A DNA stretch of 64,000 nt from Desulfovibrio gilichinskyi (GTDB lineage: Bacteria > Desulfobacterota > Desulfovibrionia > Desulfovibrionales > Desulfovibrionaceae). Both the position numbers and the translations under genes were made by a program. Below the pieces are notes generated by a model. The model saw only the letters and a list, made by a program, of their open reading frames with translations. It searched no databases and was not told where the DNA came from. Shown here in pieces: positions 62,274 to 64,000 of the stretch. The DNA is taken from positions 124,001 to 188,000 of the forward strand of contig NZ_FWZU01000002.1 in the NCBI RefSeq assembly GCF_900177375.1. The letters are read 5' to 3'. The stretch's first letter is position 1; every line of letters begins with the position of its first letter.

Positions 62274-62300
62274 TATAATTAAGTTTCAGGTGAAAATGCA

Positions 62301-62340
62301 AAAAAGGGCATAAGAGGAATTCCTCTTATGCCCTTTTTTT
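62301..62340. terminator. Bidirectional terminator between MATE and cbiM
   Basis: A nearly complete palindrome: AAAAAGGGCATAAGAGGA at 62301-62318 mirrors its complement at 62321-62338, with A-run left and T-run right. Confidence 0.95.
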
Positions 62341-62364
62341 ATGAAGGTATTGCGAGTGTATCTG

Positions 62365-62976
62365 CTAAGCCTGTTCCTGAGTGATCATCAGCATTTCAGG
62401 CCGTACTTTATATATGAAGCTGTAAGTAAACAGGCAGATAAATCCTTCGATAATCATAATCGGAATATGTGCATAGATTATAATCTGAGCCGCTCCGATG
62501 AAACTGTCATCAGTGAAGGATAATGCAAATGAAGTTAAGACAGCTGAAAGACCTATTGAAAGTGCTCCGCACATGAAAGAGCCGATGCCCATGCTTCTGC
62601 CGCCTCTAGTTAGCATTGAGCGGAACAGGTAGTGGCAGAGAACCGCAGGCAAGGCCATTGTCGCGGTATTTACTCCGATTACTGTAAGTCCGCCGTACTG
62701 AAAAAGGATCGCTTGCAATAGCAGTCCTATAAATATCGCAGGAAAAGCGGCCCACCCCAGAACCAGTCCGATGAGACCGTTTAAAATGAGATGTGCGCTT
62801 GAAGGTCCGATAGGAATATGAACGAGTGATGCAACAAAGAAAACAGAAGAAAGGAGAGCAACTGTAACTAATTTCTCTGAATCCATTTTTTTGAGCCCGA
62901 TAACTAATCCCACGGCGGTCACCGCAGCACCTGTAGCAAGCACAGGAATCGAGAGGACTCCCTCTGAAATATGCAT
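62365..62976 (-). CDS. cbiM: CbiM-type cobalt/nickel ECF transporter S-component
   Basis: Membrane protein of 203 aa with the CbiM/NikM start MHISEGVLSIPVL, whose N-terminal His is the metal ligand of the family, and HIPIGPSSAHLILNGLIG in the core. About six membrane segments. Transport normally needs CbiN, CbiQ and CbiO, but none is adjacent; the gene is alone, so partners must be elsewhere or the protein acts alone. The cobalamin genes cbiG and cobJ in the window favour cobalt, but nickel is possible. Confidence 0.92.
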   Translation of the reverse strand: MHISEGVLSIPVLATGAAVTAVGLVIGLKKMDSEKLVTVALLSSVFFVASLVHIPIGPSSAHLILNGLIGLVLGWAAFPAIFIGLLLQAILFQYGGLTVIGVNTATMALPAVLCHYLFRSMLTRGGRSMGIGSFMCGALSIGLSAVLTSFALSFTDDSFIGAAQIIIYAHIPIMIIEGFICLFTYSFIYKVRPEMLMITQEQA

Positions 62977-63051
62977 GATTCAAATCCTTATTTACTTCGT
63001 GTTTAATTAAACAGAAGCAGTGGTCCTGAAAATTAAATAACAACTCAGTAT

Positions 63052-63079
63052 GTGTATACGTTTTTTAAAATTATGACAC
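63052..63079 (-). promoter_or_regulatory. Imperfect NikR-like inverted repeat before cbiM
   Basis: GTGTATA at 63052-63058 and TATGACAC at 63072-63079 face each other across 13 bases. Delta-proteobacterial NikR sites are GTGTTAC-N13/14-GTAACAC as I recall, so the match is partial. It lies about 80-100 bp before the cbiM start. The rest of 62977-63219 is AT-rich and holds no gene I can see; no cobalamin riboswitch box was found. Confidence 0.3.
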
Positions 63080-63219
63080 ACGGTTTTTAGTGTCAAGTTG
63101 TTTTAAAATATAGAAGTTAATTATAGTCTAATTTTATTTAAATAACACCATAGAATCATTGAACGACTGTTCACTATTGACTAATTGCGGCATAGAAAAA
63201 AAATTCTAGAGGTGGAATT

Positions 63220-63588
63220 ATGGGGCGGTTTAAATCAATCATACTTATTAGTTTGTGCTTACTTTCATGCTGGACAAGTAAGTTGTCAGCAAATGCAGAT
63301 GATATACTTATTGCTGATTGTTCAACTAAGGTTTTGACAAATCAAAAAGATAATTCTCAAGTCGCATTCAAAGGTTCTGTGGATACAGATTTGGTTCCGG
63401 TTACTACGGATGGTAAAGAATTGTATGGTTCTTTAGGAGACACTACACTAGAAGTACTGAAATTTTATTACCCCCGGTCTTCAGGTCCGGGAGGGTGTGT
63501 TATGAACCCTACTGCAGGTTTCGGTATAGATTGGGCTCTGCTTGCCATTATAATTTTAATGGGATTTCTGCGGTCTCGCATGCGATGA
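63220..63588 (+). CDS. Small secreted protein with C-terminal sorting tail
   Basis: A 122-aa protein with an N-terminal signal peptide (IILISLCLLSCWTSKLSANA) and an ordinary polar region of about 70 residues with two short cysteine-poor strands. The end has PGGCVMNP, then a membrane segment (DWALLAIIILMGFL) and the basic tail RSRMR. Signal peptide plus Cys motif, TM helix and Arg cluster is the tripartite CTERM layout; the GGCVMxP form is closest to the JDVT-CTERM type as I recall, which is processed by an intramembrane protease not in this window. Function of the core unknown. A GAGGTGG ribosome site precedes the ATG. Confidence 0.75.
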   Translation: MGRFKSIILISLCLLSCWTSKLSANADDILIADCSTKVLTNQKDNSQVAFKGSVDTDLVPVTTDGKELYGSLGDTTLEVLKFYYPRSSGPGGCVMNPTAGFGIDWALLAIIILMGFLRSRMR

Positions 63589-63615
63589 GTTCTCATTCAT
63601 ATTCGAGTTTACGTT

Positions 63616-63646
63616 AAGCAGCCTGAGTTCTCAGGCTGCTTTCTTT
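63616..63646 (+). terminator. Terminator after the CTERM-tailed protein gene
   Basis: AAGCAGCCTGAG at 63616-63627 pairs with CTCAGGCTGCTT at 63630-63641, followed by TCTTTT. Confidence 0.85.
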
Positions 63647-63717
63647 TATGAAAAAACTTTATGCAAATTAATATCCAGTGGTTCGTAAGTTGCAATAAGA
63701 TGCAGAGGAGGAAAAAA

Positions 63718-63891
63718 ATGCGCAAAGTTAGATTGTCAGAAAAAACCATTCCTATTTTGTTTGATATTGTAGTCTATGGCGGCTTTGTGGCGTTTTTGCT
63801 CGCCAGTTACGTAACATTTCAAACTTTTTTAGAACGATTCTCAGGTCCTGCCCAGAAAATTATCGGTGTTTTGCACAAGTTTTTAGCTTGA
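63718..63891 (+). CDS. Single-pass small membrane protein, 57 aa
   Basis: ATG at 63718 with AGGAGG about 6 bases upstream; the frame can be extended to 63661. The protein is basic at the start (MRKVRLSEK), with one membrane segment around residues 12-34 and an amphipathic end ERFSGPAQKIIGVLHKFL. I recognise no family. It lies downstream of the CTERM-protein terminator and is closed by its own terminator. Confidence 0.65.
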   Translation: MRKVRLSEKTIPILFDIVVYGGFVAFLLASYVTFQTFLERFSGPAQKIIGVLHKFLA

Positions 63892-63910
63892 GTAGCATTA
63901 TTGATTATGA

Positions 63911-63951
63911 AAAAAAATCTCCTTTGTCTAAATGGCAAAGGAGATTTTTTT
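63911..63951 (+). terminator. Terminator after the 57-aa protein gene
   Basis: A perfect 16-bp stem, 63911-63926 with 63936-63951, A-run on the left and T-run on the right. Confidence 0.93.
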
Positions 63952-64000
63952 GTGAGTGGCCAGCTTACAATTTATACATTACACAAAGGTTGACTTAGAC

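Follow-up and report, generated by a model that had tools for sequence, protein, structure and literature searches.

A gene for 122 amino acids (aa) in Desulfovibrio gilichinskyi raises the question of whether so small a protein is sorted through its C-terminus, and by which protease. The gene lies in a window of 64,000 nucleotides, the whole stretch of DNA that was analysed. The first-pass annotation of this window described the product as having a signal peptide, a short core, a Cys-containing motif, a membrane helix, and a basic end, and all of these are present as described, the signal peptide as judged by eye.

A complete gene beside cbiM

The ORF at 63220-63588 on the plus strand is real, which confirms the first-pass observation. 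It starts with ATG, and AGGTGG ends 4 nt upstream. The features are as follows.

63210..63215, plus strand: AGGTGG, likely ribosome-binding site (read from the sequence)
63220..63588, plus strand: complete gene for the tail-bearing protein of 122 aa (ORF call; full-length homolog in genome G149 at 58% identity)
63220..63297, plus strand: signal-peptide-like segment, residues 1-26, likely cut at ANA/DD, holding the near-lipobox LLSC (Cys17) (inspection; conservation in the homolog)
63298..63483, plus strand: core, residues 27-88 (family scans; structure model; homolog alignment)
63484..63525, plus strand: tail signature GPGGCVMNPTAGFG, residues 89-102 (tail alignment; leave-out profile)
63496-63498, plus strand: codon of the invariant Cys93 in the tail signature
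63526..63570, plus strand: tail membrane helix, residues 103-117 (sequence; helix 103-121 in the structure model)
63571..63585, plus strand: basic C-terminus RSRMR (sequence)
63616..63641, plus strand: intrinsic-terminator-like hairpin 3' of the gene (terminator scan)
63718-63891: 57-aa ORF downstream of the gene

The gene is divergent from cbiM (62365-62976, minus strand), which encodes a cobalt transporter (303 bits with the family profile versus a cut-off of 173). Two terminator-like sites were observed in 62900-64000 versus 0.6 in shuffled sequences, and the promoter scan gave 2 sites versus 3.8 in shuffles. An Rfam search of 62300-64000 at gathering thresholds yielded no match. The 57-aa ORF has no clear family (best 13.3 bits); each of the 16 genus loci examined has it close to cbiM, at an identity of 36% or more, and G007 has two copies.

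The signal segment has a positive n-region, a hydrophobic stretch at residues 7-17, and ANA/DD at residues 24-28, of which A24, N25, A26, and D27 are identical in the homolog. Since LSLCLLSC is nearly or fully kept in both homologs, with S11 to C17 identical, the protein might be anchored N-terminally as a classical lipoprotein via Cys17, alone or besides the tail. We regard this as quite improbable, because the well-placed, conserved ANA/D site follows and a Cys at -4 presumably falls outside the PROSITE lipobox pattern. Cys34 is present in both homologs, as is LLSC. The core of ~62 residues matched no family above cut-off in profile scans. The structure model, made from an alignment of 2 sequences, had a mean pLDDT of 48, with residues 20-96 below 50, and this low pLDDT precluded a fold comparison.

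A JDVT-like cysteine tail

The tail of the protein reads SSGPGGC(93)VMNPTAGFGIDWALLAIIILMGFLRSRMR and is laid out as GPGGCVMNPTAGFG, IDWALLAIIILMGFL, and RSRMR. We aligned 18 of 21 extracted tails, including those of the target, its homolog, and G032; the near-duplicate L020 and the divergent L034 and L003 were left out, and the extraction pattern had missed the hit loci L012 and L029. Cys, Asn, Pro, Gly, Trp, and Leu were invariant in this alignment, and the consensus was GCVFNPAAGFGLEWLLL...RSRFK. The 16 tails besides those of the target and its homolog belong to open frames that are 445 to 1232 aa long. A profile built from these 16 proteins gave the target 57.7 bits, and the runner-up among 1041 frames of at least 30 aa in the window reached 7.3 bits. 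The E-value of 1.1e-16 (Z set manually to 4000) is a measure of consistency and no independent test, because the 16 tails had been gathered by similarity to the target; the independent support for the tail is its link to the protease MrtJ. Tail matches on frames of at most 160 aa made up 6 of 71 rows. Two of these were the target and its homolog; among the other four, L163 and L166 lie at contig ends, and L164 and L165 are broken-looking or start without a signal peptide.

The sole NCBIfam match of the target was JDVT-CTERM (NF033191; 13.8 bits, E 0.042, profile positions 2-23 of 35), and its homolog scored 16.3 bits with this model. Since 13.8 bits is below the cut-off of 27, the protein is a JDVT-like variant and no formal JDVT-CTERM member, so that the JDVT-like label of the first-pass annotation is right and membership would claim more than the score allows. 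None of the seven tail proteins scanned reached the JDVT-CTERM cut-off of 27 (best 24.3), and annotation therefore misses this tail variant. The MYXO-CTERM and GlyGly-CTERM models gave no match to the target in the NCBIfam search at E up to 10, where the HMMER filters drop most matches above ~0.1.

The genome was searched with the tail profile, and paralogous tails, which the first-pass annotation had proposed to look for, were found. C5:118743 scored 83.8 bits, the target 74.5, C2:474312 19.7, and C2:487049 15.8; C4:428270 gave 12.0 bits with the JDVT model. The last three each combine a GC motif with a helix and a basic end, and an xDPxxLG stretch, common ahead of these tails, also occurs in C2:474312 and C4:428270. 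It is plausible from these traits that all three weak candidates are tail proteins. The gene of the strong tail, adjacent to a PglB-like gene (C5, L068:16757-18863), is split over two frames here and is a single frame of 747 aa in G149; decay, phase variation, or an assembly error may account for the split. Broken-looking tail genes were also seen in G149 (C4), G023 (C64), and G117 (C2).

Further afield, an epsilonproteobacterial MAG (L116:2751-9968) encodes two GC[ST]YNPHNK-tailed proteins near an MrtJ-like gene, and these tails have a C-x-x-N-P-like spacing, as does the target tail.

The matching protease MrtJ and its co-occurrence with the tail

A search of the genome with the MrtJ model NF033192 detected one protein above cut-off, C5:110470 (83.5 bits versus 75), and a second CPBP protein at 35.7 bits. 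The first-pass annotation had staked its reading on a matching protease or paralogous tails in the genome, and both exist. MrtJ was the best model for C5:110470 when it was scanned as a protein (82.8 bits); Mrt_core NF040914 (50.1 bits, cut-off 100) and MrtS (48.0 bits, cut-off 130) stayed below their cut-offs. Across an alignment of 23 MrtJ-type sequences from the family, of which three score below the MrtJ cut-off, the Glu/Glu/Arg of EExxxR, His111, and His147 and Asn151 of HxxxN were invariant, and C5:110470 carries EExxxR, the His, and HxxxN. Its nearest MrtJ among the named loci is that of Desulfovibrio sp. UBA2564 (77% identity). A contig search with the MrtJ alignment returned 20 loci; the same kind of search with the 122-aa protein returned no relative.

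Among 199 genomes of the family, the tail (E up to 1e-3) was found in 22, and 21 of these encode a MrtJ scoring at least 67 bits; seven further genomes have MrtJ at this level without this tail. In 348 genomes of the class, which include many of the 199, the tail occurred in 29. MrtJ (E up to 1e-10) accompanied it in 28 of these, in 27 above the curated cut-off (the MrtJ of G024, at 70.1 bits, is under it), and was present in 20 of the 319 genomes without the tail. Fisher's test for co-occurrence gave 2.9e-27 by genome and 1.1e-4 by genus (MrtJ in 9/10 genera with the tail versus 11/49 others), and the genus-level figure is the safer one because related genomes are not independent. The tail of G032 (L072; 62.4 bits) is the exception: this genome yielded neither a MrtJ (E up to 1e-5) nor an Mrt_core match (E up to 1), for which another protease or an assembly gap may be responsible. 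Three genomes having MrtJ without this tail carry classical GGCTIG- or GGCTVG-type ends beside MrtJ (L041, L063, L065).

MrtJ lies in a secretion and glycosylation gene cluster

The gene order around MrtJ in this genome (C5, L068:9235-18863) is GT9-type glycosyltransferase, MrtJ, GspD, GspE-like ATPase, PglB/STT3-like oligosaccharyltransferase, and tail protein. The type II secretin GspD (TIGR02517) scored 413.6 bits, above cut-off, and the GspE-like ATPase (TIGR02533) 569.4 bits, below the cut-off of 630.25. The oligosaccharyltransferase matched Pfam STT3 and the STT3-PglB core above cut-off and was far below it with NCBIfam PglB. The cluster was read fully in three genomes, this one, G149, and the MAG Desulfovibrio sp. 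UBA2564, with the same order; it was noted at L068, L071, and L113. GspD directly adjoins MrtJ in 16 of 17 genus genomes, and PglB adjoins MrtJ in the remaining one, G093. In all of the 17 but G117 and G093, thus in 15, a tail protein lies at a distance of ~8 kb from MrtJ. Outside the genus, the linkage of MrtJ to these genes is not general: when the sequence flanking the other MrtJ loci checked (~1.5 kb, and as much as 10 kb in named genomes) was searched by tblastn, GspD was found at one further locus (L039) and a PglB-like gene at one (L058). In a Desulfonatronospira MAG, a T2SSF gene is directly followed by MrtJ, and downstream of MrtJ are T2SSM and two genes whose products carry N-methylation motifs of the pseudopilin type.

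Since the genome encodes the expected protease, beside secretion and protein-glycosylation genes, the sorting tail on the 122-aa protein is very probably genuine. The gene order suggests that glycosylation, tail cutting, and type II export are coupled. The most interesting part lies outside the window: in this genus, MrtJ is linked both to a PglB-like enzyme and to type II secretion. Desulfovibrio PglB enzymes accept a minimal N-X-T, according to an excerpt of PMC4894442. The N-X-S/T count was above the shuffle mean in 13/13 tail proteins, namely 12 of the genus (L139-L150, incomplete frames of ~538 aa) and L113:15356-17452; it was reached by at most 18 of 1000 shuffles in seven of them and by 37 to 230 in six. 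No enrichment was seen in three tail proteins encoded beside cbiM or in two further proteins from the C5 region, and the 122-aa protein has no N-X-S/T site.

As a tentative and rather unlikely extension, the cluster in this genus would couple PglB-like N-glycosylation, the cutting of cysteine tails by MrtJ, and passage across the outer membrane by way of its own GspD and GspE-like ATPase, and the 122-aa protein would be its smallest natural cargo, consisting of little more than a signal peptide and a tail and yielding a short, lipid-anchored, freely evolving surface peptide.

Selection on the tail and the history of the cbiM site

A single full-length homolog was found among the genomes searched, that of G149, which is also 122 aa long, shares 58% identity, and has the same cbiM neighbourhood; 2 of the 17 genomes of the genus, this one and G149, thus carry the full-length protein. 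Between these two genomes, the neighbours CbiM and MATE share 94-95% identity. By two methods, dN/dS was 0.14-0.16 for the tail, 0.36-0.56 for the signal segment, and 0.66-0.71 for the core, all rough values because the segments are short and come from one sequence pair; those of cbiM, mrtJ, MATE, and gspD were 0.05-0.11. By these values, selection preserves the tail but hardly the core.

The tail being the most conserved part bears on another explanation, by which the protein is an ordinary small inner-membrane protein that stays unprocessed. Its two hydrophobic segments and tiny core would suit such a protein, but the tail also matches those of large proteins, down to the invariant Cys, Asn, and Pro, and co-occurs with the protease, so that we consider this explanation very improbable.

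The main rival starts from the other tail genes at this site. The cbiM region was fetched at length for 16 of the 17 genus genomes (G199 was left out), and five of them have tail genes by cbiM, two small and three of 496-505 aa (G007, G105, G193). Two of the three large proteins gave NHL or lactonase matches just above cut-off. The one of G007 was modelled with a beta-propeller part, for which the best PDB match by E-value was 1l0q, the YVTN propeller of a surface-layer protein from an archaeon. In G157, G172, and G074, the gene is absent at the cbiM site, with a flank offset of ~440-510 bases and no trace by tblastn.

These large neighbours raise the possibility of a shrinking remnant: the 122-aa protein would descend from a large tail protein near cbiM that lost most of its core, its signal peptide and tail becoming fused in frame with little function left. 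The G007 gene is placed divergently upstream of cbiM like the target, but there a copy of the 57-aa ORF separates the two genes. The core is almost free of constraint, and tail genes look broken elsewhere (C5 of this genome and the contigs named above in G149, G117, and G023). There is also weak resemblance at the core start (SANADDILIAD versus SAYAEDLYIAD, E 0.74) and at the core end (DTTLEVLK versus DPTLGVIK), the latter merely the edge of the tail match. Several results speak against a remnant. When the core was aligned to the three large proteins, 96 to 895 of 1000 shuffles were equally good, by which a leftover propeller blade was rejected. The two homologs have the same length of 122 aa and, at a dS of about 0.55, neither an indel nor a stop; under neutrality, the chance of a stop-free frame is 0.048 for the whole and 0.18 for just the core. 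Purifying selection also acts on the tail. Descent from a large protein by deletion is only possible, because the small core shows nothing significantly like the large proteins. Overall we judge the remnant explanation somewhat unlikely. It is compatible with processing by MrtJ, since a remnant may still be sorted.

A probable small substrate of the MrtJ system

The first-pass reading, a protein with a Cys tail whose protease is encoded in the same genome, is supported in substance, and we consider it likely that the MrtJ sorting system of this bacterium takes the 122-aa protein as a small substrate, including the following route. The protein would be exported by Sec and parked in the inner membrane by its tail helix, with the basic end inside. 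Cys93 would then be lipidated, and MrtJ, an intramembrane glutamic protease, would cut just after it. The resulting lipid-anchored peptide (about residues 27-93, ~67 residues) may be displayed on the outer surface via the type II system whose GspD and GspE-like ATPase adjoin MrtJ. Lipidation, cut site, and surface display are inferred by analogy with the proposed MrtX/TraA model (excerpts of PMC11980579). The core is, at a guess, a short, fast-evolving surface peptide. The tail identity, the matching protease, the other tail proteins, the co-occurrence, and the gene linkage form the sequence basis of this reading. We counted against it the sub-cut-off JDVT score, G032, the few genomes with the full-length protein, the split gene of the other strong tail, the weakness of the remaining tails, the lack of a domain above cut-off or a confident fold in the core, and the sub-cut-off GspE-like score.

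Among the literature matches listed, the sole experimental study of Cys-tail sorting by Rce1-like proteases is that of MrtX in Myxococcus (PMC11980579), so that the Desulfovibrio system would represent a second lineage. Such C-terminal sorting in Desulfovibrio was not described among the matches listed, and no literature was found joining Desulfovibrio, type II secretion, and the oligosaccharyltransferase PglB. Because the protease gene lies beside genes for a secretin, a secretion-ATPase-like, and an oligosaccharyltransferase-like protein, the proposed coupling between tail cutting and type II export is directly testable. The 122-aa protein would be a convenient minimal substrate, ~13 kDa before and ~7 kDa after the predicted processing by residue count, and its tail could help to show the route of such proteins to the cell surface.

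Comparison with known sorting systems

A 2024 in-silico paper reportedly treats the MYXO-, JDVT-, Synerg-, and CGP-CTERM tails. The system described here resembles JDVT-CTERM/MrtJ (NF033191/NF033192) in its tripartite tail with an invariant Cys, a helix, and a basic end, and in the cognate MrtJ encoded above cut-off in the same genome. It differs in that the target tail is below cut-off and has the signature GC[VA]xNPxAGFGLEW. According to excerpts of PMC11980579, MrtJ and a single target form a two-gene arrangement in beta- and gammaproteobacteria, whereas many genomes here encode several tail proteins, and MrtJ stands beside GspD, ahead of the GspE-like and PglB-like genes.

GlyGly-CTERM proteins, the substrates of rhombosortase, share the Gly-rich motif, helix, and basic end, and are described as exported by type II secretion (PMC11980579). 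The tail analysed here is distinguished from them by its invariant Cys, a partner protease of the Rce1/CPBP kind, and the lack of a match to their model.

The MYXO-CTERM/myxosortase system has been studied experimentally, and in the same excerpts the TraA tail is processed by MrtX in E. coli, the cut requires the cysteines of the motif, MYXO-CTERM proteins depend on type II secretion, and lipidation by an Lgt-like enzyme is a prediction of the authors (PMC11980579). The target differs from this system in having no match to the MYXO-CTERM model and in being a predicted substrate of 122 aa without a known domain, and the protease of this genome scored 28 bits with MrtX (cut-off 180). Both systems nevertheless combine a Cys tail, a CPBP-type glutamic protease, and a link to type II secretion, as known for TraA of Myxococcus xanthus.
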